From a virus, in the IMG/VR virus record IMGVR_UViG_3300009285_000641, positions 1-31,250 of that record: 31,250 bases of DNA. The stretch is one strand, 5' to 3'. The notes beneath the pieces were generated by a model. It was not told the DNA's origin and searched no databases. It saw only the letters and a list, made by a program, of their open reading frames with translations. Of the stretch, positions 5,936 through 31,250 are shown piece by piece. Position numbers and translations under genes: made by a program. Each line of letters starts with the position of its first letter. The first letter of the stretch is position 1.

Positions 5936-6442
5936 CTATTTCTCTGGGATGTGTTCCTTGAACCATGCTTCAACTTCGGCATATGGAATGACTGCCCCCG
6001 CTTGGTCAACGCCAGCAATGAACTTGAACTTGAATGCTTGGTGAAGTTCGAAGGTTCTTCGCCAACAATCACCCCGCCAGCACTTCTCGCGTTCTCCTTG
6101 ATAGCCAAGACGATTTAGCATCATTTCGCAGATGTTCAGAGCCAAGTCGGCCGGGCCACTACCGGCATAGCCAAACTCAAATCCAGTGGGGGAGTGATGT
6201 GTTACGAGGTGGGGGATATTGGTGAGGACATTGCCTTGTAGATCACGTTGCAGGATGATCCCGTCCTCAATCAAATTGAACAGGGTCAAGTCGGTATAGG
6301 TTTCGTTGTCTGCGCTCATGCTCGTTTTTCCTTTGTGTGAACAGATAGGCCCCATTGACTTTGAGATGCTGACGGGGTTGGTGAGCAACCTGTGGCATCT
6401 ATTGCAATGCGTTGGGGCCAAACTGAAGAATGCGGTTTGCAT
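5936..6442 (-). CDS. DUF6011-like zinc ribbon joined to a DUF6166-like domain
   Basis: This 168-residue protein appears to have two parts. Residues about 10-36 (CNRCHRLLTNPVSISKSMGPIC) match the Cys-x2-Cys ... GP-x-Cys pattern recalled for DUF6011 zinc ribbons. Residues about 45-125 contain 'GFEFGYAGSGPADLALNI', the hallmark recalled for DUF6166 phage proteins. Neither family has an established function. The ATG follows a GAAAGGAG site 9 bp upstream. It is the first gene of a leftward group that continues into the membrane peptide and the MT-A70 methyltransferase. The family calls are from memory of motifs. Confidence 0.7.
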   Translation of the reverse strand: MQTAFFSLAPTHCNRCHRLLTNPVSISKSMGPICSHKGKTSMSADNETYTDLTLFNLIEDGIILQRDLQGNVLTNIPHLVTHHSPTGFEFGYAGSGPADLALNICEMMLNRLGYQGEREKCWRGDCWRRTFELHQAFKFKFIAGVDQAGAVIPYAEVEAWFKEHIPEK

Positions 6443-6698
6443 GGTTGACGACTCCTTTCAAGAGTAATCATATTATTCTAAGTCTCAATTATCTGGTAGA
6501 GACTAACCCAGGCACGGGCCGGGCTTGAGTACCGGCTACCACGTGTTACTCGCAAGCGCACGCAAGGTCGGCGCTGCGCCAGTGGCAGGAACTTCAGCCT
6601 TGCGAAGTGGCCGTGTGTCCGTCCACACCGCCGTGCTTTCGATTGTTAATGACAAGCAGTTGTGGAGGCCAGGTCGCTAGACTGTATGCTGACCGACA
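6443..6698. other. Gene-free, G+C-rich stretch beside the HNH endonuclease
   Basis: About 250 bp without a convincing gene on either strand. Positions 6500-6680 look richer in G+C than the flanking genes and contain several short self-complementary segments, for example GGCGC/GCGCC around 6570-6580. No group I intron core or tRNA fold was found by eye. It lies directly 3' of the HNH-AP2 gene, so it may have arrived with that element. Confidence 0.4.
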
Positions 6699-16707: not shown

Positions 16708-17553
16708 ATGAAAAAGACCAAATCATTTTTGGTTGCGGTGGTGTCGGATACTCACGTTGGATCAAAAATAGGACTAGCCCCCCCGCGCATTGATTTTGAC
16801 GATGGGGATAGTTACGAGGCTTCTCAGATACAGCAAGAGGCTTGGGATTATTGGAAAAAAGACTTCTGGCCTTTTGTCTGGAAGAAAAACAGAGAAACCG
16901 TTGTGGTTTTCAATGGCGACCTGATTGATGGCAACCATCATGGAACCAATCAAATCTGGTCTGCCTCCGAGATAGAGCAGATACGAGTCGCGGCAGATTT
17001 GTTTGACCCCATTGCGCGCAAAGCGTCTAGCACTTATGTGGTACGCGGGACGCCCGCACATGTGATGGCCTCAGGAATGGCAGATGAGGCAATCGCCAGA
17101 AAAATAAGGGCGAATAAATCAAGCCCCGAGGGCAACCGTGTAGCTACCAGCTCCTATCATCTGAAACTCAATGTAGGAGGCGTCAATCTGGATATAGCCC
17201 ACCATGGCCCTAATCCGGGAAGGCGCATATGGCTCTATGGAAATGAATTGCGTGGGTATTGCCGAACCATAGTCTTGGATGCCTTGGCGCGGAATGCCAA
17301 GCCACCAGATGCGATTATCCGTAGTCATGTCCATCACAAAGTACACGAAACTGTCAGGGACTATGGGAACAAATGCGAGGCATTCATTACTCCCGCGTGG
17401 CAATGGAAGACGGAGTTTGCTCACCGGATTGTGAGTCATGAGGATATTGCCGACATAGGCGGACTGTTGATTGAGATTGACGGCAGTGAGATTTCAAATG
17501 CCTACTTTAGAATACTCCCCATGTCACAAAGCGACTTCATAGAAATAAAATGA
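16708..17553 (+). CDS. Calcineurin-like metallophosphoesterase
   Basis: This 281-residue protein carries most metal-binding motifs of the family in order: SDTHVG (D-x-H, about 13-18), NGDLIDG (about 69-75), HHGPN (about 168-172) and SHVHH (about 209-213). The usual GNH(D/E) motif is replaced by RGTPAHVMASG, so the catalytic asparagine is not obvious. Members hydrolyse phosphomonoesters or phosphodiesters, including nucleic acids. It lies in the late operon and overlaps the next gene as ATGA. Nuclease, nucleotidase or phosphatase activity cannot be told apart from sequence. Confidence 0.8.
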   Translation: MKKTKSFLVAVVSDTHVGSKIGLAPPRIDFDDGDSYEASQIQQEAWDYWKKDFWPFVWKKNRETVVVFNGDLIDGNHHGTNQIWSASEIEQIRVAADLFDPIARKASSTYVVRGTPAHVMASGMADEAIARKIRANKSSPEGNRVATSSYHLKLNVGGVNLDIAHHGPNPGRRIWLYGNELRGYCRTIVLDALARNAKPPDAIIRSHVHHKVHETVRDYGNKCEAFITPAWQWKTEFAHRIVSHEDIADIGGLLIEIDGSEISNAYFRILPMSQSDFIEIK

Positions 17554-17870
17554 GATCAACCAAGAAAGCCAAGACTAACGGCAATGGTCTTAGTCGGGAG
17601 TCTGTATTCCAACATCTGATGGAGAATTATGATCTTGGTTATCGCTTAGAACCGATTCTGGAAGATGAATTCACTCCGATTGAATTTAGACAAGCAAAAC
17701 ATTTGCCGGAAACAACTGCTACAAGAATACTTACCCGATGTGTCGAAGGAGGTCTATTGGAATGCCGGTGGGCCTATTCACCGACCTTGCGTCGCAAGGT
17801 CAGGGCATACCGATTTGTGTCTCCCAAACAAGGAAGGCCAAGCCAAGAACGACAAAACAAAAGGCAGTGA
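17550..17870 (+). CDS. Winged-helix-like DNA-binding protein (putative)
   Basis: This 106-residue basic protein has a pattern fitting a winged helix: a first helix (ESVFQHLMENYDLGYRLEPIL), then 'TPIEFRQAKHLPETTATRILTRCVEGGLLECRW' (helices followed by a turn) and a strand pair 'LRRKVRAYRFV' as the wing. It may be a late transcription regulator. No specific family was recognised. Its start overlaps the phosphoesterase stop as ATGA, which couples their expression. Confidence 0.5.
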   Translation: MRSTKKAKTNGNGLSRESVFQHLMENYDLGYRLEPILEDEFTPIEFRQAKHLPETTATRILTRCVEGGLLECRWAYSPTLRRKVRAYRFVSPKQGRPSQERQNKRQ

Positions 17871-18703: not shown

Positions 18704-18732
18704 TTGACAGAAAGTAATAATTGACATAAACT
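18704..18732 (+). promoter_or_regulatory. Promoter of leader A (capsid genes)
   Basis: TTGACA (18704-18709), a 17-bp spacer and TAAACT (18727-18732). The expected start falls at the beginning of the conserved box at 18738. The 90 bp upstream, after the methyltransferase gene, hold no gene. Confidence 0.65.
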
Positions 18733-18737
18733 AAACT

Positions 18738-18769
18738 ACAACTGCATACTTTGCGCGACTCTGTTCGCC
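18738..18769 (+). promoter_or_regulatory. Conserved 5' leader box, copy A
   Basis: This 32-nt segment is 29/32 identical to 25190-25221 and starts 6 nt after the -10 box in both copies, so it should form the first bases of the transcript. Its GCG-C-GAC / GTTCGC part (18753-18768) can pair into a 6-bp hairpin with one bulge. That hairpin uses the same bases as the 5' arm of the following terminator, a classic antiterminator arrangement. The trigger is unknown. Confidence 0.7.
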
Positions 18770-18811
18770 TCTTGTTGCATCTTTGATGCCTAACAAGGGG
18801 CGTTTTGTTTT
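18766..18811 (+). terminator. Intrinsic terminator inside leader A
   Basis: An 11-bp stem CGCCTCTTGTT/AACAAGGGGCG (18766-18776 with 18792-18802) stacks on a 5-bp GCATC/GATGC stem with a TTT loop and a 2-nt bulge, followed by TTTTGTTTT. It stands before the start of the protease gene, so it should reduce read-through unless prevented. Confidence 0.8.
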
Positions 18812-18836: not shown

Positions 18837-20213
18837 ATGCCTTGGGAGATAAGAAAGAAAGACAGTGAATTCTGTGTTCATAAGAGGGGGAACGACACAC
18901 CTCTCAAATGCTATCCCACGCGGGGGAAGGCGGTGGAGTACCTGCAAGCCCTGTATGCCAATGAGGACAATAAGATGGCGGTTGATGTAGAAACTGTCAA
19001 AGCTAAGACAAAGAAGATTGGGGCGAATAGCTATCCTGCCAGCGACTTTCTCGTGGTTGAAGACTTGGATATGCCCTCAAAGTGGCATTTGCAAGTCAAG
19101 AAACACGGAAAGATGGACGCTGGACTCATGGGAGGCGCTCACGCAGCGTTGATGTCGCCGGGGGGACACCGGGGTAACAAGTACGCAGGCCCGGACAAGG
19201 AAGCGGCCATTGCCAAGTTGAAGAAGATGTACAAGCAAGCGGGCATGACGTGGCCCGAAGACAAGAAGAAGGACAGTAGCAAGAAGTCTCTCAATCTCAT
19301 GGAGCTTGAGAGCAAAGTCCACATAGCGATCAAGGAAAAGCTCATGGAAGCCGGTGGATACAAAGACAGTTGGGATATGCCCTACTGCCCGACCGAGGTC
19401 TTCATGGACTTTGCCATCGTGAAGACGGACAACGGCCTCTATCAAGTCCCATACGAAATTGATGCGGAGTCCTATGAAGTCACATTGGGAGAGCCGATCA
19501 AGGTCAAGGTTGAGTACGTTCCAGACGACGCCGAACCGGAAGATGACATGGATGCAGACGGCGCATTGGATGAGAAATTCAAGGAGATGGTGAAGAAGTC
19601 GTCTGAATTGATGACTATCAAATCCATTGGCCCAGACAGGGTGGGTGGCTACGCGGTGTTGTGGGGAGACGAGTCTCGCAAAGACTTGACGGGCGAATGG
19701 TTCACCCCCAAGACTGAGGAACTTACGGCGATCTTTGATGTGGTAGGCAAACTCCCGTTCATGTACCACCACGGCCTAGATGAAACGGTCAAGACGCATG
19801 TGAGCGGGGTGGTAGACACGTTGAAACCGGACAGTGTTGGACTGTGGTACGAGGCTCAACTTAAGAAGGCTGACGAATACGACGAGCAAGTAAAGAAGTT
19901 GATTGAGGCTAAGAAGCTTAAGACTTCTACCCAGACGTTTCCTCTCGCTCGGCGTGTAAGCGTCAAGGGGGAGATTACCCGGTGGCCGATTGCCGAGATT
20001 ACCGGCACGCCCACCCCGGCAGAATACCGGATGCAACCGATTGAAACACTGAAGTCGGCATATCAAGCCATCGGCTGTAAGGATGATGACTTTGCGTGCA
20101 TGTTGAAGAAATACGGCGAGGCGGCAGAAGGCGAAGGCGACAATCAAGGCGCTGAGAAGGCGCGATTGATGCTGGAGCTTGAAGCGGCCCGGCTCTCTTT
20201 ATTGGAAATCTAA
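18837..20213 (+). CDS. HK97-type prohead protease with N-terminal extension
   Basis: This 458-residue protein would mature the capsid. The C-terminal third is an S78-like protease: GGYAVLWGDESRKDLTGEWF, then a catalytic-type histidine in MYHHG (His311/312), then KTSTQTFP (Ser364 candidate) and ITRWPIAEITGTPTPAEY. Upstream are a short domain beginning MPWEIRKKDSEFCV with YLQALYANE, often seen at the start of such phage proteins, and a segment 'MSPGGHRGNKYAGPDKEAAIAKLKKMYK'. The start at 18837 is chosen because earlier ATGs lie inside the terminator hairpin and MPWE is the familiar N terminus. No strong Shine-Dalgarno site is visible, which is unusual for a structural gene. Confidence 0.8.
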   Translation: MPWEIRKKDSEFCVHKRGNDTPLKCYPTRGKAVEYLQALYANEDNKMAVDVETVKAKTKKIGANSYPASDFLVVEDLDMPSKWHLQVKKHGKMDAGLMGGAHAALMSPGGHRGNKYAGPDKEAAIAKLKKMYKQAGMTWPEDKKKDSSKKSLNLMELESKVHIAIKEKLMEAGGYKDSWDMPYCPTEVFMDFAIVKTDNGLYQVPYEIDAESYEVTLGEPIKVKVEYVPDDAEPEDDMDADGALDEKFKEMVKKSSELMTIKSIGPDRVGGYAVLWGDESRKDLTGEWFTPKTEELTAIFDVVGKLPFMYHHGLDETVKTHVSGVVDTLKPDSVGLWYEAQLKKADEYDEQVKKLIEAKKLKTSTQTFPLARRVSVKGEITRWPIAEITGTPTPAEYRMQPIETLKSAYQAIGCKDDDFACMLKKYGEAAEGEGDNQGAEKARLMLELEAARLSLLEI

Positions 20214-20228
20214 CAAGGAGTAATAGAC

Positions 20229-21722
20229 ATGAAAGACGAATTGGAGGCCCTGCGCGTATCCATCAAGGCCCTCATTGACGAGACGGACAAGTTGATCTCG
20301 GACGGCAAACTTGAAGAGGCGAAAGTCAAACAAGTGGAGATCAAGAAACTGCAAGAGCAGGCCCAAGTGCTGAAGGCACAGGCGGAGGCCAAAGCCGCTG
20401 AAGATAAGATGTCTGGCGAACTCAAGGCGCAACAGCTTGAGAAGGAAAATGCCGACCTCAAGGCTAAACTCAAAGACCCGGTGCGCTTGGAAGGTCTGGC
20501 GGGCGATATATCTGCGCTTGAAACAGATACCAAGGGCGAAGCGCAAAAAGCCACCTATCAGACTCGCTATGGGACGATTGATGCAGGCGTGAAGGCCGTG
20601 CTTTCCGACCTATACGGAAGCGAATTCAACTACAACCAGGCCCGCGATGAGCAAATGAAGGCGTTTGTGAAGTATATCCGGCTGGGCGAGAATCGCTTGA
20701 CCGCCAAAGAAATCGAGATGCTGACTCCTAAGTGGAACAACATCATCTTGCGCCCGGATGTCATCAAGTCGGAACTGGAAGCGGGACGGAGCGTAGCCGA
20801 AATCAAGGCTACGCTGGTAGAAGGCACACTGGACTTGGGCGGGTACACTGTCCCTGAGGACTACCGTGTGAATATTATCTCCCGCTTGGTCGGTAATACC
20901 GTGGTACGAAAACGCGCTCGTGTGGTTACGACTACCCGCGATGCGATTGAGTGGCCCAAGTTGGAAGGTGGCAACACCATCTACACCTCAGCGGTGCGCG
21001 TGACGTGGGTGCAGGAACAGCCTGCCAGCGCGACAGCGGCTTCAACTAACCCGACCTTCGGTCTGTACCGCATCCCAGTGCATACGGTAATGGCGCGCAC
21101 GGACTTCTCACGCAACCTCTTGGAAGACTCGGCCTTCAACCTGCAAGAAACCATTGCGGGCCTGTTTGCCGAAGCCATGGCGGTTGACGAGGACAATCAA
21201 TTCTTGACCGGCACGGGCGGGGGTACGCCTCGCGGTGTGTTGGCTGGACGCTCTGGGGCCGAACAAACACCTGAAACGGGCGTGACTGCGGTGGTTTCCG
21301 GGAATGCTTCAGCAGTAACGGCTGATGGGTTGCTTGACTTGGTGTATGCCGTGGCACAGCAATATCGCAATAGCGCGGCCTTCGCCGTGTCCCGCACGAC
21401 TCAGCGCGATCTTCGCAAACTGAAGGACGGCAACGGGCGCTATATGTGGCAGGATAGCATTCAGCAAGGACAGCCTCCGGCGCTGTTGGGCTATGCGGTT
21501 GACGAGTCGGAGTCCATGCCGACTATCGCGGCCAATGCCTATCCCATCATCTTCGGAAGCTGGCTTGGGTATCTGGTAGCGGATCGCGTGGGCATGAGCG
21601 TTGAGCGCGTAACGGACTCTACCCTAGTCGGCCAAAACCGCGTGGCTCTGTTTGCGCGTCGGCGTTTGGGCGGACAGGTAATTGAGCCGTGGCGTTTCGC
21701 GGCCCAGCAAATGTCAGTTTGA
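20229..21722 (+). CDS. HK97-type major capsid protein
   Basis: This 497-residue protein has a highly charged coiled-coil N terminus (about 1-85: KDELEALRVSIKALIDETDKL..., KKLQEQAQVLKAQAEAKAAEDK), the scaffold-like delta domain removed by the protease encoded upstream. The capsid fold follows, with landmarks GGYTVPEDYRVNIISRL, ARTDFSRNLLEDSAF, AVDEDNQFLTGTG and the C-terminal QNRVALFARRRLGGQVIEPWRF. AAGGAG precedes the ATG. It is the main virion shell subunit. A 10-bp hairpin follows at 21743-21769. Confidence 0.92.
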   Translation: MKDELEALRVSIKALIDETDKLISDGKLEEAKVKQVEIKKLQEQAQVLKAQAEAKAAEDKMSGELKAQQLEKENADLKAKLKDPVRLEGLAGDISALETDTKGEAQKATYQTRYGTIDAGVKAVLSDLYGSEFNYNQARDEQMKAFVKYIRLGENRLTAKEIEMLTPKWNNIILRPDVIKSELEAGRSVAEIKATLVEGTLDLGGYTVPEDYRVNIISRLVGNTVVRKRARVVTTTRDAIEWPKLEGGNTIYTSAVRVTWVQEQPASATAASTNPTFGLYRIPVHTVMARTDFSRNLLEDSAFNLQETIAGLFAEAMAVDEDNQFLTGTGGGTPRGVLAGRSGAEQTPETGVTAVVSGNASAVTADGLLDLVYAVAQQYRNSAAFAVSRTTQRDLRKLKDGNGRYMWQDSIQQGQPPALLGYAVDESESMPTIAANAYPIIFGSWLGYLVADRVGMSVERVTDSTLVGQNRVALFARRRLGGQVIEPWRFAAQQMSV

Positions 21723-23652: not shown

Positions 23653-24066
23653 ATGAGTAACACTTTATATACCAAAGGCAGGGAAGGGTTTCTCGCTGGG
23701 GATTTAGATTTTGATGCCAACACAATCAAAATCACATTGGTCTCTACGGCGAGTTACACTGCCAATACCTCCAACGACACTTTCTATACCGTCATCCCCA
23801 TCGGCGGGCGAGTCAAAGAGTCTGACACGAATGCACTCAGCACTAAGACCACTACGAGCGGCATTGCCGATGCGGGGGATGTGACGCTCTCAGCGGTAAG
23901 TGGCATCCCGTTCCATGCGATTGTGATTTGGCAAGACTCCGGGTCTCCCTCAACGTCCCGTTTGATTGCGTACATTGATACGGGAACTGGCTTACCAGCA
24001 AGCCCAAATTCTGGGGATATAACCGTCCAGTGGGCAGCTGGCACATCTAAAATTTTCTGTTTGTAG
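23653..24066 (+). CDS. Phage virion protein of the 'KGREGFL' type
   Basis: This 137-residue protein matches a recurrent phage structural protein pattern recalled from many genomes: LYTKGREGFLAGDLDFDANTIKITLV at the start, then 'GIADAGDVTLSAVSG', 'AIVIWQDSGSPSTSRLIAYIDTG' and 'GDITVQWAAGTSKIF' at the end. It is beta-rich and lies with the head and decoration genes; the exact virion position is not known. GGGAG lies 9 bp before the ATG. The 74 bp upstream contain no other gene. Confidence 0.7.
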   Translation: MSNTLYTKGREGFLAGDLDFDANTIKITLVSTASYTANTSNDTFYTVIPIGGRVKESDTNALSTKTTTSGIADAGDVTLSAVSGIPFHAIVIWQDSGSPSTSRLIAYIDTGTGLPASPNSGDITVQWAAGTSKIFCL

Positions 24067-24116: not shown

Positions 24117-25160
24117 ATGGCAAAAAAGGGTTGCTCTAAGTGCGGGAATGAATTTGAAGCAAGAGGCAACAGATCAAAATACTGCTCTATCAAATGCCAA
24201 TATGGAATTGGTGTTTGTAGAACATGCGGAAAAGAGTTCGTTAAGAAATCAAATACTACTGGAGATTACTGTTCTAGTAGATGTTGGTATAACTCTGAAG
24301 ACTTCAAGGATGTTGAATACAAGAAATGTTCTCATTGTGGAGTAAGTAAGCCCCATACCGAATTCCCATATTCTGGTGGAAAGGGAGAACTTCATGGTTG
24401 GTGCAAAGATTGTCATAGTCAATCCTACGAGGAAAATCAGTCCAAGAAAAGGCAATCCGCCATAAAGTACGCAATAGGTGATTTCCCGGAGCGAATCAAG
24501 AAATATAGATTAGAGCAAGGAATGACACAACAGGAATTCGGTAAAAAAGTCGGAATTGGCGCTACCCAGATTAGACACTGGGAAAAGGGTACAAGTCTTC
24601 CGCATCCCAAGAAAGTAAAATTCATATTTGATCTATTTGGATGGGAAGTTCCAGACGAATTAAATGAAAGACAAGATTTTAGATTGCCACTTGGAATTGG
24701 AATATGCCCATATTGTGGAAACTCATTTCCAATCTATAGAACCAAAACGGTATTTTGTTCCAGGATTTGTAACAACAGATACCATAGCAGTGAGCGAAGT
24801 TCAACCTGGCGTGGCGGGAAATATGAGTCTGGGTGTGGCTATATCAAAGTCAAGATGCCAGACCATCCCAACTCAGATACCAGTGGCTATATCCCAGAGC
24901 ATAGATTGATAATGGAGAGAATTTTGGGTAGACATTTACTTCTTGGCGAAAAGGTTCATCACAAGAACGGAATTCGTGATGATAATCGTCCAGAAAATCT
25001 TGAGTTGTGGACTACGGATCACAAAGACCCTCCAGGAGTGCGTGTTTCAGATAAGATAGCAGATGATATACTCTCTCAACCTGAAATTTCAGAATTGCCA
25101 GAAGAAATCAGAGGAAGAATAAAAGACGCATTGTATCGGGTTGCAAACAAACAGAGTTGA
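24117..25160 (+). CDS. HNH endonuclease with zinc fingers and HTH domain
   Basis: This 347-residue protein has several Cys clusters in its first 110 residues (CSKCG ... YCSIKC, CRTCG ... YCSSRC, CSHCG ... CKDC). An XRE-like helix-turn-helix follows (about 130-175: IKKYRLEQGMTQQEFGKKVGIGATQIRHWEKG), another zinc finger (CPYCG ... FCSRIC) and an HNH nuclease (HRLIMERILGRHLLLGEKVHHKNGIRDDNRPENLELW, about 262-300). This layout is typical of mobile phage HNH nucleases. AAGGAG precedes the ATG, and a weak TTGCGT-17-CATACT promoter lies at 24067-24095. Its sequence is visibly more A+T-rich than the structural genes around it, so it probably inserted recently. Confidence 0.88.
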   Translation: MAKKGCSKCGNEFEARGNRSKYCSIKCQYGIGVCRTCGKEFVKKSNTTGDYCSSRCWYNSEDFKDVEYKKCSHCGVSKPHTEFPYSGGKGELHGWCKDCHSQSYEENQSKKRQSAIKYAIGDFPERIKKYRLEQGMTQQEFGKKVGIGATQIRHWEKGTSLPHPKKVKFIFDLFGWEVPDELNERQDFRLPLGIGICPYCGNSFPIYRTKTVFCSRICNNRYHSSERSSTWRGGKYESGCGYIKVKMPDHPNSDTSGYIPEHRLIMERILGRHLLLGEKVHHKNGIRDDNRPENLELWTTDHKDPPGVRVSDKIADDILSQPEISELPEEIRGRIKDALYRVANKQS

Positions 25161-25184
25161 CAATAAGCGTTAGGGTGATAGAAT
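25157..25184 (+). promoter_or_regulatory. Promoter of leader B (modification cluster)
   Basis: TTGACA (25157-25162, overlapping the end of the HNH gene), a 16-bp spacer and TAGAAT (25179-25184). The start is expected at the conserved box at 25190, at the same spacing as in leader A. Confidence 0.7.
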
Positions 25185-25189
25185 AATAC

Positions 25190-25221
25190 ACAACTGAATA
25201 TTTTGCGCGACTTTGTTCGCC
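25190..25221 (+). promoter_or_regulatory. Conserved 5' leader box, copy B
   Basis: Second copy of the 32-nt box at 18738-18769, differing at 3 positions (box positions 8, 12 and 24). It can form the same bulged 6-bp hairpin, which competes for the CGC that begins the terminator stem. It precedes the genes from 25282 onward. Confidence 0.7.
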
Positions 25222-25268
25222 TTATGGATGTCTGCCAATGGCAGCTAATCTATGAGGCGTTGTTTTTT
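25218..25268 (+). terminator. Intrinsic terminator inside leader B
   Basis: A 12-bp stem (25218-25229 with 25248-25259, including two G-T pairs) stacks on a CTGCC/GGCAG stem with an AAT loop, followed by TTGTTTTTT. Apart from the outer CGCC/GGCG, the stem sequence differs from copy A while pairing is kept, as expected for a structure under selection. Confidence 0.8.
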
Positions 25269-25281
25269 AACGAGGAACATT

Positions 25282-25602
25282 ATGAGCGACACGCAAGACT
25301 ATGCACAAATGACGTTGGCAGAGCTAAACAGCTTGTCGGCCAAACTCTATGATGACTACTACACCTTGAAAGACAAGATCAAGCGTGTGGACAGGTTACG
25401 CAACGCCAAGATGCAAGAGGAACAAGCACGCAGGGCATTGGAGGCGGCACAGTCGCAATTAGATGAGGCGCAGAAAGCGCAAGCGCCAGAGATCAAAATC
25501 GTTCCCGACTCTATTGAGTCAGATGAGGCCGTGCAGACTCAGATTCCCAAGTGGCGGGAATGGATAGCGAGGATATGCAAGAAGCAGGCTATAAAAAGTT
25601 AA
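25282..25602 (+). CDS. Coiled-coil protein, first gene after leader B
   Basis: This 106-residue protein is mostly helical and charged (TLAELNSLSAKLYDDYYTLKDKIKRVDRLRNAKMQEEQARRALEAAQSQLDEAQKAQ), consistent with a coiled coil, with a basic tail (WREWIARICKKQAIKS). A GAGGAAC site precedes the ATG at 25282; an earlier ATG lies inside the terminator hairpin and is rejected. No family was recognised. It may be a small virion or scaffold component, or belong to the modification cluster behind it. Confidence 0.6.
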   Translation: MSDTQDYAQMTLAELNSLSAKLYDDYYTLKDKIKRVDRLRNAKMQEEQARRALEAAQSQLDEAQKAQAPEIKIVPDSIESDEAVQTQIPKWREWIARICKKQAIKS

Positions 25603-25612
25603 TTGAATTCCT

Positions 25613-26527
25613 ATGTCTCAATTGAGTATCCTCGTACCAGCAGGTGGGGAGACATTTCTATCAAAGACAGTGGACGATCTCTTTACTAAAGCTGATGGCG
25701 AGATTGAAGTTGTCGTCGCATTAGATGGTGTGTGGCCTAATCCGACCCTAATGGATCGGCCCGGTCTTCGCATCATTCATTTTGGCGCACATCGGGGAAT
25801 GCGGGCTTGTCTTAATGCCGCTGCTGCTGTGGCAACAGGCGAGTGGATAATGAAGCTTGATGCCCATTGTATGGTTGCTGAGGGCTTTGATGAGGTTCTT
25901 AAACGTGATTGCGCCGACAACTGGGTAATGATCCCACGTCGTTACAGTCTAGATGCGGAGAATTGGAAGATTGAGGAGAACGGTAGAGGGCCAAAAGATT
26001 ATCACTATCTTAGTTGCCCAGAATGGAGTATCCGTGAACGTGATGATTACTCTATGCACGGGGTAGAGTGGAAAGAAAGAACACGGGAACGACACAACAA
26101 GCCAGAATATGATATTGACGAGACAATGAGTTGGCAAGGCAGTTGTTGGTTCATGTCTCGTAAACATTGGGACTGGTTGGGTGGACTATCAGAGTTTGGT
26201 TATGGCACATTTGCTCAAGAGCCACAAGAGATTGGAAACAAGACATGGCTAGGAGGGGGGAAATTGATGTGCAATAAGAAGACGTGGTACGCACATCTCC
26301 ACAAAGGAAAGAGGTATGCTCATTTGTGGCGCATGTATCAAGTGGTTCAACAAGAGATTGCAACGGGTCACGAATGGTCTGCAAGATACTGGATGGGCAA
26401 TCAGTGGAAAGAACGTGTGCATGATTTGGAATGGCTTATAGACCGTTTCTCGCCTGTTCCAACGTGGACACCCCATTGGAAAGAACTGTATGTCGAAAGT
26501 GTCAGTCGTCATCCCATCGCGCAATGA
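25613..26527 (+). CDS. GT-A family glycosyltransferase (paralogue 1)
   Basis: This 304-residue protein has a family 2-like GT-A fold: nucleotide-sugar binding start 'LSILVPAGGETFLSKTVDDLF', 'EVVVALDGVWPNP', and the metal site 'IMKLDAHCMVAEGFDEVL'. The DxH with following cysteine replaces the usual DxD, as in GT27 polypeptide GalNAc-transferases. Acceptor-side landmarks follow (WQGSCWFMSRKHWDWLGGL, FAQEPQEIGNKTWLGGGKLMCN, WYAHLHKG). It should transfer a sugar to a phage or host acceptor, which is not identifiable. There is no clear Shine-Dalgarno site, and the gene follows the coiled-coil gene by 10 bp. It overlaps its paralogue by 38 bp. Confidence 0.85.
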   Translation: MSQLSILVPAGGETFLSKTVDDLFTKADGEIEVVVALDGVWPNPTLMDRPGLRIIHFGAHRGMRACLNAAAAVATGEWIMKLDAHCMVAEGFDEVLKRDCADNWVMIPRRYSLDAENWKIEENGRGPKDYHYLSCPEWSIRERDDYSMHGVEWKERTRERHNKPEYDIDETMSWQGSCWFMSRKHWDWLGGLSEFGYGTFAQEPQEIGNKTWLGGGKLMCNKKTWYAHLHKGKRYAHLWRMYQVVQQEIATGHEWSARYWMGNQWKERVHDLEWLIDRFSPVPTWTPHWKELYVESVSRHPIAQ

Positions 26528-27407
26528 AGTATACGAGATCGCGCCGGGTGTAACCGTCCTTCAACGCATGGTTCAAGACCTCTACGAAAAAGCAACAGGA
26601 GAATTCGAGGTCATCGTTGCTTTTGACGGCCCCCCATATCAGCAGTTCCCAGATTATCCTAACCTGACACGTTTAGAGTTGCCCCAACTAGGTCTCAAGC
26701 CTTGCGTCAATGAGGCCGCACATATAGCAACAGGCAAGTACCTTTGCAAATTCGATTCACACTGTATGGTCAGTAAGAGTTTTGATGAGGTTCTTCAGGA
26801 ACACATGGAAGACAATTGGCTTATCACGCCACGTTTCTATGTACTGGATGCGGAGGAGTGGAAGTGGCAGGATGAGCGGTTCTATGATTACTTTTTCTTG
26901 GATTGTCCACTGACCGATAGAGTGCAATATCGATTCAAGGCAGGGGGACATTGGCCACAACGCACTAAGGAGCGAATGCACATTGGCCCCCTAGATGAAA
27001 CTATGGTGATGCACGGGTCTTGTTGGTTCTTATCCCGCGATTACTTTTTGAATTGTCTGGGTGGGATGTCATCTATCGGGTATGACTCGTTTGGCATGGA
27101 ACCGGCTGAACTCTGCTTGAAAACTTGGTTGGGGCCATGGAATGGCAAAGTCTTTGTGCGTAAAGATGCTTGGTTTGCACATATGCACAAAGGTGGCCAA
27201 CGACCTCGGGGTTATAACTTAAGCAAGGAACGCATTTGGAACTCCTACGCCTGGACAGCAAATTATTGGATGTCCAATAGTTGGCCAGAGCGTGCGCATG
27301 ATTTGGAATGGCTAGTGGACAAATTCATGCCGATTCCAAGTTGGCCTAAAAATTGGAGTGAGTTGCAAGCGCAACATGAGGCTGAGCGACAAACAGAAAC
27401 GATGTGA
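26490..27407 (+). CDS. GT-A family glycosyltransferase (paralogue 2)
   Basis: This 305-residue paralogue of the preceding enzyme shares the block order: VSVVIPSRNEVYEI, EFEVIVAFDGPPYQ, 'LCKFDSHCMVSKSFDEVLQEH' with the DxHC metal site, 'VLDAEEWKW', MHGSCWFLSRDYFLNCLGGM, and PAELCLKTWLGPWNGKVFV ... WFAHMHKGG. GGAAAG precedes its ATG, which lies inside the end of paralogue 1. Two adjacent, diverged copies suggest successive sugar additions or two acceptors. Its stop overlaps the next GTG start. Confidence 0.85.
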   Translation: MSKVSVVIPSRNEVYEIAPGVTVLQRMVQDLYEKATGEFEVIVAFDGPPYQQFPDYPNLTRLELPQLGLKPCVNEAAHIATGKYLCKFDSHCMVSKSFDEVLQEHMEDNWLITPRFYVLDAEEWKWQDERFYDYFFLDCPLTDRVQYRFKAGGHWPQRTKERMHIGPLDETMVMHGSCWFLSRDYFLNCLGGMSSIGYDSFGMEPAELCLKTWLGPWNGKVFVRKDAWFAHMHKGGQRPRGYNLSKERIWNSYAWTANYWMSNSWPERAHDLEWLVDKFMPIPSWPKNWSELQAQHEAERQTETM

Positions 27408-27892
27408 TTATAGGCCACGGTGACATTGCCAGTGTATTGGTTGACAGACCTGACAGACTATTTTTTGCCTCAGGTGTCTCCAATAGTTCTGAGGTGCGAG
27501 AGTCTGAATACAGACGCGAAATTGATCTTCTAATGATGCAAGAACGAACAGCGCACCTTGTGTATTTCGGTTCTTTATGTATTTTCTATTCTGAAACTCG
27601 CTATGCCATGCACAAGCAACAAATGGAGTCAATGGTTAAGGCGTTGTTTGCACGCTATACCATTATTCGATTGGGCAATATAACTTGGGGAACAAACTTT
27701 CATACGCTCATCAATCACTTACGAGAAATGAAACGCAGAGGACAACCATTAGATATTCAGGATGTTTATCGGTACATCGTGGATGAGGAAGAGTTACGAT
27801 ATTGGTTGTCCCTCATCCCGGAATGGAGTTGTGAACTCAATATACCCGGACGCCGAATGAAGGTTGCGCAGATCGTCAAGGAATTTGTATGA
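27404..27892 (+). CDS. Short SDR / NAD-dependent epimerase-like protein
   Basis: This 162-residue protein looks like a reduced sugar epimerase/dehydratase: 'RPDRLFFASGVSNSSE', 'HLVYFGSLCIFYSETRYAMHKQQMESMVKA' containing the SDR-type Tyr-x3-Lys (Tyr-Ala-Met-His-Lys), and 'YTIIRLGNITWGTN'. The classical N-terminal GxxGxxG nucleotide motif is poor (IGHGDIASVL), and the protein is about half the usual length, so the reaction is uncertain. The start is GTG overlapping the previous stop. Its place between glycosyltransferases and methyltransferases suggests work on a nucleotide sugar. Confidence 0.65.
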   Translation: MIIGHGDIASVLVDRPDRLFFASGVSNSSEVRESEYRREIDLLMMQERTAHLVYFGSLCIFYSETRYAMHKQQMESMVKALFARYTIIRLGNITWGTNFHTLINHLREMKRRGQPLDIQDVYRYIVDEEELRYWLSLIPEWSCELNIPGRRMKVAQIVKEFV

Positions 27893-28389
27893 AACTCTCT
27901 GCGAGATATGGCACGCATTTGTTGGCGCTCATGCGAGCAGTGTACAAAACAAGGGGTGATGTTCTGGAGTTAGGTATTGGGCCATTCAGCACACCGATTT
28001 TACATGAGATGTGCGTCTCGCGATGCTTGGTATCTATAGATAATAGCATGGAATTTTATGAATGGGCCAAGAAATACCAAACAGAATTTCACGAGATTGA
28101 ATTTGTGAATAACTGGGACGAGGCTGATATTGAGAAGCAATGGGATGTTGTGCTAGTGGATCACTCACCGTCTGAAAGGCGCGTGACTGAGATTAAGAAA
28201 TTATCGAGGCTTGCGCGGTATATCGTGGCCCATGATGCTAATGGTCGGTACGATGACTTTTATCATTACAGCACTATTTATCCGCTATTCAAATACAAGT
28301 ATGTTTTCAGCGCCGTTGAGCCAAGCACAGTTATATTGAGCAACTTTGTTGACTTGGGAAGTTTTTGGAGCAGACGTGAACAAAGATGA
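27889..28389 (+). CDS. Class I SAM methyltransferase-like protein A
   Basis: This 166-residue protein has a Rossmann methyltransferase start, 'DVLELGIGPFSTPILHEM' (motif I about 25-33), 'CLVSIDNSMEFYEWAKK' (acidic strand 2), and 'QWDVVLVDHSPSERRVTEI'. 'ARYIVAHDANGRYDDF' ends the core. The family acts on small molecules or sugars; the substrate is unknown. It overlaps the gene before it as ATGA and is overlapped by the next methyltransferase. Confidence 0.7.
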   Translation: MKLSARYGTHLLALMRAVYKTRGDVLELGIGPFSTPILHEMCVSRCLVSIDNSMEFYEWAKKYQTEFHEIEFVNNWDEADIEKQWDVVLVDHSPSERRVTEIKKLSRLARYIVAHDANGRYDDFYHYSTIYPLFKYKYVFSAVEPSTVILSNFVDLGSFWSRREQR

Positions 28390-28996
28390 AACGCTAGAGT
28401 TTATTAGAAACAAATTCAATCTGGACTTGTCTGCACGCACGCCTATTGAGTTCCGTTTGAGCCGTCACGGTGGACTAACTTCTCTCTTTTGTGAGTTGGG
28501 ATATACAGCGGGGGCTGAAATTGGCGTTGAGCAAGGAAAATTCTCTGCGGAGATTTGTCGTGACAATCTCGGCGTCAAACTCTACTGCATTGACCCATGG
28601 CAAACATATACACGGTACATTGACGAAGTTAGCCAAGACAAATTAGACGGATACCATGCTGAGGCTATAGAACGCCTTGCACCCTATGATGTGACGATCA
28701 TTCGTAAAACCAGCATGGAGGCCGTGAAAGATTTTGAGCCAAGCTCGCTCGACTTCGTGTTTATAGACGGCAACCACGACTTTCGCTATGTAGTCAATGA
28801 CATTATCTATTGGGCGGATGTCGTGCGAATAGGGGGGATCGTTGCGGGCCATGATTACAAAAACGAGAACAAGAATCGTCGCATTCCGTTCCACGTCGTG
28901 CAGGCCATAAATGCCTACACGGATTCATATCACATCCGACCCTGGTTTGTGATAAGAGGCGACAAGGCTTCTAGTTGGATGTGGGTAAAGATATAA
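28376..28996 (+). CDS. Class I SAM methyltransferase B (Methyltransf_24-like)
   Basis: This 206-residue protein has 'GAEIGVEQGKFSAEIC' (motif I), 'KLYCIDPWQTY', 'SSLDFVFIDGNHDFRYVVNDIIYWADVVRIGGIVAGHDY', the pattern of the Methyltransf_24 type often found in glycan clusters. The GTG at 28376 is chosen because GGAG lies 5 bp before it; a TTG ten codons upstream is the alternative. It is probably a sugar methyltransferase acting with the glycosyltransferases. Its 3' end overlaps a leftward gene by 26 bp. Confidence 0.8.
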   Translation: MNKDETLEFIRNKFNLDLSARTPIEFRLSRHGGLTSLFCELGYTAGAEIGVEQGKFSAEICRDNLGVKLYCIDPWQTYTRYIDEVSQDKLDGYHAEAIERLAPYDVTIIRKTSMEAVKDFEPSSLDFVFIDGNHDFRYVVNDIIYWADVVRIGGIVAGHDYKNENKNRRIPFHVVQAINAYTDSYHIRPWFVIRGDKASSWMWVKI

Positions 28997-29249
28997 AATG
29001 GTCAAGCACAATCCAATCCATACCGAGCAAGTCCCCATCACTGATGATCCACTTGTGCCAAGAACCACTTGGCTTATGGAGCATCAACAAACCGTCTCTA
29101 AGCGTTCCGTAACATTGTGTATCTCCCCATTCGAGTTTAGTGATGCACTTGCCCTCATTGATGATGGACGACAACGCTTGCGGGAAACCTGTGGTCTTGG
29201 GCGGCACAGGTGATTGTGAGGCTGTGGAAGGTGTTGTTATGTCTGTCAT
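28971..29249 (-). CDS. Tad2-like (DUF2829) protein, putative anti-Thoeris
   Basis: This 92-residue protein is read against the direction of all surrounding late genes. From about residue 23 it has the DUF2829/Tad2 pattern: 'FPQALSSIINEGKCITKLEWGD', 'GLLMLHKPSGSWHKWIISDGDLLGMDWIVL', matching the family order F-xx-AL ... G-K ... W ... DW-x-V. Known Tad2 proteins are phage sponges that bind the signalling nucleotide of Thoeris defence. A promoter lies directly upstream at 29257-29285 and would give a nearly leaderless mRNA; no Shine-Dalgarno site is seen. Ligand specificity is not predictable. A plus-strand frame at 28998-29213 is judged its shadow. Confidence 0.75.
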   Translation of the reverse strand: MTDITTPSTASQSPVPPKTTGFPQALSSIINEGKCITKLEWGDTQCYGTLRDGLLMLHKPSGSWHKWIISDGDLLGMDWIVLDHFISLPTSN

Positions 29250-29595
29250 GGCGGAAAGTGTAGCGCAAAGCATGTTACCTGTCAATCTTGTATCTCTTCC
29301 AGCCTGTTGTCTTGACTTAGATATTTTGTTAGAAGACATTATCTTCCCAGAGCGGATGGATAGCGATGGGAGGGAATTTTTTTCCGCACACGAGTTGGAT
29401 TCCGTGACACTCCGTAAGCTGAGAAAAGGAGCGATCAATCTGGGTGGTGGAATGGTGAAGATAAAACATCGTTGCGCACAATTGTTGGATGACGGGAGAT
29501 GTGGAATATACGAGACTCGCCCAAAGATTTGCCGTGATTTTGATTGTACTACACGGCACGATTGTGCCTGTCAGGGCAGGGGGAAACTCCCATGA
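29239..29595 (+). CDS. YkgJ-type cysteine-cluster protein
   Basis: This 118-residue protein has the C-terminal pattern of the YkgJ/UPF0153 family: 'CAQLLDDGRCGIYETRPKICRDFDC', followed by further cysteines (HDCACQGRG), plus an N-terminal 'PACCLDLDILL'. The family is thought to bind zinc or an iron-sulfur cluster; its role is unclear. The ATG at 29239 has AAGG 7 bp upstream; a start at 29140 would run through the Tad2-like gene and is less likely. It belongs to the rightward modification cluster and overlaps the next glycosyltransferase as ATGA. Confidence 0.75.
   Translation: MSVMAESVAQSMLPVNLVSLPACCLDLDILLEDIIFPERMDSDGREFFSAHELDSVTLRKLRKGAINLGGGMVKIKHRCAQLLDDGRCGIYETRPKICRDFDCTTRHDCACQGRGKLP
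29257..29285 (-). promoter_or_regulatory. Promoter of the Tad2-like gene
   Basis: On the minus strand TTGACA (29285-29280), a 17-bp spacer and TACACT (29262-29257). Seven bases separate the -10 box from the ATG at 29249, so the start site would coincide with the start codon. It lies inside the divergent YkgJ-like gene. Confidence 0.6.
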
Positions 29596-31250
29596 CAGAA
29601 TTAAGCATTCTCATACCAGCACGCAATGAGCAATTCCTTAAACGGACGATTGAGGACATTTTGGCGCACACCAAAGAGGATACTGAAATTATTGCTGTAT
29701 TGGATGGGGTGTGGGCCGAACCCGCTATCCCAGACCATCCACGGGTGACACTTATCTATCATCCCCAGAGTATTGGTCAACGTGCAGCAACTAACGAAGC
29801 GGCACGTGTCTCAACCGCTAAGTACATAATGAAATGTGATGCCCATTGTAGCTTTGATGATGCGTTTGACATGAAACTTATAGATGCCTATGAATCTGGA
29901 GAACTTGGGTCAGATGTTACGACAGTGCCGAGAATGTTCAACTTGCACGCTTTTGACTGGGTATGTGAGTGCGGTGAGCGAACGTATCAAGGGCCACATC
30001 CCGGAGTGTGTTCAAAGTGTGGTGGTCAACAGTCTGAAATGGATATTCTATGGCGTGCTAAACCATCGCCTACAACTGATGCTATGCGTTTTGACCACGA
30101 ACTCCACTTCCAGTATTTCGGGGAGTTTAAGAAGAGGCCAGAGGGAAGGGGCGATATTACTGAGACGATGAGTCTATTGGGTGCATGTTGGATGATGCGC
30201 CGTGAACGCTTTTGGGAACTTGGGGGAATGGACGAGGCGCATGGGAGTTGGGGACAGATGGGAACGGAGATTGCATGTAAATCCTGGCTCTCTGGTGGGC
30301 AACTAGTATGCAATAAGCGCACATGGTTTGCGCATCTGTTTCGCACGCAACCTGGGTTTGGATTTCCATATCCTAATCCCGGCATAGAAAGAGCCAGAGA
30401 ACGGTCAAGGTATCTGTGGTTTGGAAATAACTGGTCTGGGCAAGTACGCCCGTTGTCTTGGCTCATTGAGAAATTTGCGCCACTTCCGGGTTGGCATGAT
30501 CCCATCGGCGCTGAGGCATTGGCTAGAGTCAATGCGGGTAGTAAAACTTTCAATCCCAAACATCGTTCTACGAATAACGTTGTATCTATACCTAGTGTCT
30601 CCAGGTCAATTGATAAACTCACCCCAACCAAAGGGTTTGTATTCTACACTGATAATCGCTTGGATGAATACATTGCGCGGACTGTACGCCATCAACTAAC
30701 TGCTTGTTGCAATGGATATGACTTGGTAAGTGTATCGCTCAAGCCTCTTGATTTCGGGCGCAACATTACTCTTCAAGCTGAGCGCGGGCCACTCACGATG
30801 TTTCGTCAAATCCTAGCCGGATTGGAGGCAAGCACAGCGGATGTAGTATTTTTAGTTGAACATGATGTTCTATACCACCCATCCCATTTCAATTTTATTC
30901 CAAAACACCCAAGTATATTCTATTACAACAGAAATAACTGGAAAGTTGATTCCATTACTGGTCGCGCCCTGTTTTTTATATGTGACCAGACGCTTGGTTT
31001 GTGCGCTTACCGCTCCTTGCTTCTGGAGCACTATCGCGCACGTGTGGAACGCGTTAAGCGCGAAGGTCATTTTGATCGTTCAATTGGTTTTGAGCCCGGT
31101 ACACATCACAGGCCACGCGGCATTGATGATCATCATGCAGAGAGTTGGATGTCAGAGGTTCCCAACATAGATATTCGACACGGTGGGAACTTAACGCGGA
31201 GCCGTTGGCGACAAGACCAGTTCCGCAATCAGAAGTACTGCCAAGGTTGG
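29592..31250 (+). CDS. Two-domain glycosyltransferase, truncated by window edge
   Basis: The frame is open for 553 codons to the last base, so the C terminus is missing. Residues about 1-320 are a third GT-A enzyme: LSILIPARNEQFLKRTIEDIL, EIIAVLDGVWAEP, 'IMKCDAHCSFDDAFD' (DxHC), 'LGACWMMRRERFWELGGMDE', 'WGQMGTEIACKSW'. A zinc ribbon (CECGERTYQGPHPGVCSKCG, about 119-140) is inserted, absent from the two paralogues. From about residue 358 a second domain starts at 'GFVFYTDNRLDEYIARTVRHQL' with 'VVFLVEHDVLYHPSHF', 'GLCAYRSLLLEHYRARVERV', and 'PNIDIRHGGNLTRSRW'; its EHD could be a metal site, and it resembles a glycosyltransferase-like domain found in polysaccharide clusters. ATGA overlap marks the start. 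Confidence 0.82.
   Translation, partial: MTELSILIPARNEQFLKRTIEDILAHTKEDTEIIAVLDGVWAEPAIPDHPRVTLIYHPQSIGQRAATNEAARVSTAKYIMKCDAHCSFDDAFDMKLIDAYESGELGSDVTTVPRMFNLHAFDWVCECGERTYQGPHPGVCSKCGGQQSEMDILWRAKPSPTTDAMRFDHELHFQYFGEFKKRPEGRGDITETMSLLGACWMMRRERFWELGGMDEAHGSWGQMGTEIACKSWLSGGQLVCNKRTWFAHLFRTQPGFGFPYPNPGIERARERSRYLWFGNNWSGQVRPLSWLIEKFAPLPGWHDPIGAEALARVNAGSKTFNPKHRSTNNVVSIPSVSRSIDKLTPTKGFVFYTDNRLDEYIARTVRHQLTACCNGYDLVSVSLKPLDFGRNITLQAERGPLTMFRQILAGLEASTADVVFLVEHDVLYHPSHFNFIPKHPSIFYYNRNNWKVDSITGRALFFICDQTLGLCAYRSLLLEHYRARVERVKREGHFDRSIGFEPGTHHRPRGIDDHHAESWMSEVPNIDIRHGGNLTRSRWRQDQFRNQKYCQGW

Follow-up and report, generated by a model that had tools for sequence, protein, structure and literature searches.

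The window analysed here, 31,250 bases long, is the entire IMG/VR virus record IMGVR_UViG_3300009285_000641, in which Pfam and PHROG profile matches identify genes for terminase, portal, prohead protease and an HK97-type capsid. The prohead serine protease (S78 type; 18837–20213, plus strand; Pfam PF04586, E 4e-5; PHROG head maturation protease) is followed by the major capsid protein (HK97 type; 20229–21722, plus strand; PF05065, E 8e-63). The ORF caller placed the protease start at a TTG at 18783, within the terminator described below; the start is most likely the ATG at 18837, since relatives begin MPY there in the alignment. Further downstream, the structural region contains a series of glycosyltransferase-like and methyltransferase-like genes (25613–30700), part of which (about 29590–30700) looks like a related gene split across several frames. 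A near-identical strain of the phage is present among viral contigs (L001). No close capsid relative was found among GenBank phages, where one record matched with 80% query coverage and 28% identity, and a capsid search of bacterial genomes returned no relative.

The protease is the first gene behind a compact leader (18704–18811, plus strand), referred to as copy A. The leader opens with a putative promoter (18704–18732) made up of TTGACA (18704–18709), a 17-nt spacer and TAAACT (18727–18732), which scores 10/12 in a consensus scan and has equivalents in most relatives. A 32-nt box (18738–18769) leads into an intrinsic terminator (18766–18811), whose stem pairs as 11+5 bp over 18766–18802, precedes the T-rich tract TTTTGTTTT and has a predicted fold of -24.9 kcal/mol. 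The conserved portion of the box is a mini-hairpin, GCGA-CUCUGU-UCGC (18755–18768), with position and stem kept and covarying in relatives; it has CGC 18766–18768 in common with the 5' arm of the terminator. The folding z-score of the leader is -4.1. Promoter-like and terminator-like scans were overall no richer than in shuffled sequence, so lone consensus matches weigh little and the argument rests on conservation. A second, overlapping TTGACA is present in copy A (18721–18750; 18-nt spacer, CATACT), and doubled TTGACA motifs occur upstream of or inside several leaders (L004, L047, L048 and L056).

A second leader, copy B, lies on the same strand at 25157–25268. Its promoter (25157–25184) combines TTGACA (25157–25162), a 16-nt spacer and TAGAAT (25179–25184), matches the consensus at 11/12 positions with a TG ahead of the -10, and includes in its -35 the stop codon of an HNH gene. 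The box (25190–25221) is identical to box A at 29/32 positions by direct reading, the same pair being listed as D3 in the repeat report. It contains the mini-hairpin GCGA-CUUUGU-UCGC (25207–25220), the same 14 nt of which are found in L084, and is followed by a terminator (25218–25268) with 12+5 bp over 25218–25259 and the T-rich tract TTGTTTTTT (fold -27.5 kcal/mol; folding z-score of the leader -5.0). The first-pass annotation had described precisely this order of promoter, box and terminator in two copies, the pairing of both terminators and the use of the terminator's 5'-arm bases by a box hairpin, and all of these descriptions held. The gene downstream of copy B (25282–25602, plus strand), for which ATG 25282 is the most likely start, has a weak scaffold-like match (phrog_3760, E 0.005).

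Chance would place the 20-nt core of the box 0.01 times in the window, where it has exactly two occurrences, and the sole match to the core pattern outside the window across viral contigs was the near-identical strain. Sequence comparison indicates that having two copies is peculiar to this genome: copy B accompanies a gene with HTH_3 and HNH domains (24117–25160) inserted between two structural genes, whereas in a 105-kb relative (L048) the homologues of the genes at 23653 and 25282 adjoin, with neither a leader nor an HTH-HNH gene between them. Copy B may thus have arrived together with the insertion. The contig L007 has a promoter at the equivalent junction between the 23653 and 25282 homologues and ends there.

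Relatives were collected by capsid and protease searches, a later protease search adding L084/L085, L086/L087, L090 and L093–L095. An intrinsic terminator stands directly ahead of the prohead-protease gene in 16 phage genomes including the window, nearly always behind a promoter, giving 17 leaders, a count that includes copy B, which precedes another gene. A promoter, a short leader and a strong terminator directly before the protease were found in window copy A and in L004, L009, L010, L047, L048, L049, L050, L051, L056, L057, L011, L084/L085 and L090. Here L048, L044 and L055 represent one lineage (the 105-kb record), L047 is a 100-kb record and L011 is very distant. As an example, L004, whose capsid is 53% identical to that of the window, carries a promoter, GCGACCTTAGATCGCC and a terminator just upstream of the protease. 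Terminator and hairpin are also present in L087 and L093, with a weak or unrecognisable promoter. Four lineages (L084, L087, L090 and L093) were found only after the hypothesis had been set, and the hairpin is present in all of them. Leader length varies from about 20 to 110 nt.

The leader has clear limits. A protease leader of this kind is absent from L008, L078 and L079; L074 and L077 have the terminator, no hairpin and no clear promoter; and none of the more distant protease loci (L096–L149) has the leader. Among 29 distant capsid loci, a leader precedes the capsid in L011 only. Scanned strictly for a promoter plus terminator, the records of 105 kb and 100 kb returned the protease leader and few other sites. 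Rfam 15 covariance models gave no match in the window, none at E<=5 for the leader and none on the leaders of 11 relatives, in line with the initial statement that no described leader class is recognisable. In L051, an additional terminator-like hairpin (60–100; TACCG...CGGTATTTTTATTT) directly follows the promoter, ahead of the mini-hairpin and main terminator.

Comparison of these leaders redefines the conserved unit. The 32-nt box had been taken as the element; outside the window genome its first 17 nt are not kept and only the last 14 nt, the mini-hairpin, persist together with the terminator. What is kept is a 4-pair hairpin of 13–18 nt with a loop of 5–9 nt, whose 3' end lies 0–7 nt beyond the first base of the terminator stem. 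At least four Watson-Crick pairs near the terminator start were found in 11/13 leaders, compared with 1.55 +/- 1.15 in leader shuffles (0/5000) and with 12/125 other terminators in the same records (Fisher 1.5e-8); since the leaders are related and not independent samples, these and the following statistics are guides and not exact probabilities. In the full set the hairpin sits at the terminator in 14/17 leaders, a scan restricted to loops of <=9 nt, so that the L011 hairpin (10-nt loop) counts in the 11/13 and not here. It is the sole such hairpin of the leader in nearly all cases; L009 carries an additional hairpin well upstream, and in L047 a second one overlaps the first. L049 and L051 have just 3 pairs, and the L011 hairpin is A/T-rich.

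The stem changes in sequence while remaining paired. Its types are GCGA/UCGC, GCGU/ACGC, GCGC/GCGC, GCAU/AUGC, ACAG/CUGU (or AGGG/CCCU) and CCGG/CCGG, with an inner pair of AU, UA or CG. The terminator stems vary in length and sequence among leaders, and MAFFT misaligned L047, L011 and L049; over the ten cleanly aligning leaders, the covariation score was 0.356, with shuffles giving 0.114 (0/500) and sliding giving 0.07 at most. Both kinds of comparative support that the first-pass annotation had proposed looking for, homologues (15 other genomes) and covarying pairs, were obtained. The sharing of GCGA stems may be partly due to descent. At its 3' end the loop reads U-Y-N-G-W in 8/16 loops, against 0.5 in shuffles (0/20000), a figure that is descriptive because the motif was noticed in the same loops and the alternative stem of L047 was chosen accordingly. 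The motif is absent in half of the lineages; the genomes that have it include the window, L084, L056, L048 and L047, whose stems are of three types. On its GCAU stem L056 has the same loop as copy A, and L009 has a different loop. A loop kept while stems differ resembles a protein-bound RNA hairpin. We regard it as well supported that the leader is real and conserved, bears a terminator and includes a structured RNA element.

The mini-hairpin and the terminator compete for bases to differing degrees. They overlap by 3–7 nt in most leaders, for which the mutual exclusion originally proposed stands, and by 0–2 nt in L056, L047 and L048, where there is little thermodynamic competition and exclusion is weak. 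For many leaders, folding of truncated transcripts predicts the mini-hairpin (P 0.83 for copy A). Alone it is weak, at about -1 to -5 kcal/mol, and unaided it loses to the terminator, which is favoured by 0–11 kcal/mol once its 3' arm has been made. When the mini-hairpin is forced closed in the calculation, overlapping leaders lose the 2–5 terminator pairs closest to the U tract; two hairpins that abut each other remain, followed by a gap before the U's. Loss of the basal pairs beside the U tract is expected to spoil intrinsic termination. A loop-binding factor could therefore turn the operon on.

We propose, with a probability of roughly one half, that the leader acts in cis to attenuate transcription of the head-morphogenesis operon and is opened by a trans-acting factor that holds the mini-hairpin. 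Host RNA polymerase would start at the sigma70-like promoter, transcribe about 30 nt and by default stop at the intrinsic terminator, so that protease and capsid would not be made early. The mini-hairpin, with its 4 bp and loop of 5–9 nt, would form first on the emerging RNA; a factor, probably a phage protein and possibly a host one, would bind and stabilise it, and the 2–5 basal terminator pairs next to the U tract would then be blocked, permitting read-through. L056, L047 and L048 fit this scheme less well, and there a bound factor would act sterically. From the sequence we infer a promoter that fires, a working terminator, a hairpin whose effect is to antiterminate and not to help termination, and the existence of a binding factor. 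The initial suggestion of an attenuation or antitermination leader has thus gained the same layout before the protease in the other genomes and a covarying hairpin, with the switch itself still inferred. A factor-controlled antitermination switch is the best reading, if an unproven one, and the leader is probably a so far undescribed RNA switch that keeps head-gene expression off until it is released.

To our knowledge, only a few phages, most of them lambdoid, have a regulated antitermination system that is understood in detail. If the attenuator reading is correct, the head operon of a clade of uncultured metagenomic phages would be gated by a short RNA element that is portable and whose structure already has comparative support. 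The reading predicts that a factor binds the loop and so opens the foot of the terminator, and the leader would mark the start of late transcription in phages known from metagenomes.

The closest parallel in principle is the RAT element of BglG, SacY and LicT, in which an intrinsic terminator shares its foot with a small hairpin immediately upstream and is kept open by protein binding (PMC9981650; PMC3369931). Here too the hairpin overlaps the terminator foot and the two structures are mutually exclusive in most leaders, weakly so in L056, L047 and L048. However, at 13–18 nt the phage hairpin is about half the length of the 29–30-nt RAT; a CAT_RBD protein was found in 0/9 records, which may be incomplete, although control genomes did match; and the genes controlled would be phage head genes instead of sugar operons. 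The leader therefore appears, by analogy, to work on the RAT principle and is not a RAT member, because its hairpin is half as long and a CAT_RBD protein was not seen in these records. The ANTAR leaders of EutV, NasR and AmiR likewise place a short-stem mini-hairpin, often with a six-base loop, directly before the terminator (PMC3369931). In contrast to their two hairpins with A1 and G4 loops, the window has the loops CUCUGU and CUUUGU and one conserved hairpin. The records gave no match to an ANTAR-domain protein, a search in which the control genomes gave no match either.

More generally, no recognisable antiterminator protein family was found in the records searched, and a candidate factor is suggested by gene order. 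In 5/5 genomes checked (window, L047, L048, L056 and L085), a small HTH gene lies after the phosphoesterase gene and upstream of the leader. In the window it encodes a small putative winged-helix protein (17550–17870, plus strand) with a modelled H-H-H-E-E structure (pLDDT about 94 over residues 41–70) and fold matches to generic wHTH and winged-helix regulators only. On the strength of this model and its synteny we treat it as a lead, a candidate antitermination factor. A more specific version of the attenuator reading would make the leader a new phage class of local antitermination, in which a small phage protein, perhaps this winged-helix one, binds a 14-nt hairpin (U-Y-N-G-W loop) joined to the terminator foot and thereby switches on the head operon, the stem drifting while loop and position are kept. 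We consider this version speculative and, taken whole, rather unlikely.

The main rival is processive antitermination of the Q, AlpA or GafZ type, in which a phage protein would load on polymerase at promoter DNA and pass the leader and later terminators, the mini-hairpin serving as a pause or loading aid. The Q systems of lambda and 21 and P. aeruginosa AlpA have this layout, with a promoter that runs straight into a terminator ahead of late or lysis genes, the default state being off (PMC7969949; PMC11150451). Copies A and B both carry a -10-like hexamer (CATACT and AATATT, respectively) 15–20 nt past the -10, and the winged-helix gene upstream in the five genomes would suit this rival equally well if its product loaded at promoter DNA. 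However, such a -10-like pause element was not seen by eye in the other leaders, and Phage_antitermQ (PF06530), the sole Q family searched, was absent from the 9 records, though these may be incomplete. Q and AlpA systems are specified by promoter DNA, with a binding element between -35 and -10 and a sigma-dependent pause in the lambda Q type, whereas the conserved element here is an RNA hairpin at the terminator; a processive factor has no need of a hairpin held at that terminator's foot, with a stem that covaries and a loop that is conserved. We judge this mechanism unlikely, if a serious competitor.

An unregulated leader is less probable again. Its terminator would be a fixed brake that lowers expression by a constant proportion, or the leader would yield a stable small RNA of about 70 nt; either would suit the short leaders and the fact that no factor is known, and the transcript would be compact and stable. 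A fixed brake, however, leaves the covarying hairpin at the terminator foot and the conserved loop unexplained, and outside the hairpin the genomes share no conserved RNA sequence, which a small RNA acting in trans would need.

Two further readings seem very improbable. Antitermination by RNA only, with nascent hairpins acting on polymerase without a factor, finds a likeness in put of HK022, also a phage leader RNA with tandem hairpins near the promoter: the mini-hairpin and the residual terminator stem would form two abutting hairpins, as put comprises two stem-loops. But put is about 70 nt, has two long stem-loops, acts processively at a distance and is separate from the terminator (PMC9378689), whereas the conserved element here is 14–17 nt, a 4-bp hairpin that is part of the terminator. 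The palindrome could alternatively be a DNA operator just past the start site, bound by a repressor or the winged-helix protein, with its place at the terminator incidental. GCGA-N6-TCGC is palindromic and operator half-sites would change together too, but the half-site spacing varies from 5 to 9 nt or more, the position is tied to the terminator and not to the promoter, its distance from the -10 ranging from 11 to 98 nt, and the conserved loop speaks against it. Leader-peptide attenuation was rejected, as the leaders read have no conserved start codon with a ribosome-binding site and a short ATG frame in L004 is unshared, and so was a riboswitch or T-box, for which the leader is too short and the conserved part is only the 14-nt hairpin.

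Other features were observed in the relatives. L050 carries six tRNA genes (133–1047) upstream of its structural genes. In L063, another attenuator-like leader (6440–6560; about 65.8–66.0 kb of G001, plus strand) precedes a small Zn-ribbon/HNH-like gene, and its upstream GTCACCCACTATGCAAG is complementary to CTTGCGCTAGTGGGTGAC within the terminator. On the minus strand of the same locus (4950–4800), in the late region of the 105-kb phage G001, a second promoter, a leader of about 80 nt and a strong terminator stand before a gene starting MPLEYPCDVDRW; the hairpin at this terminator has only 3 bp.
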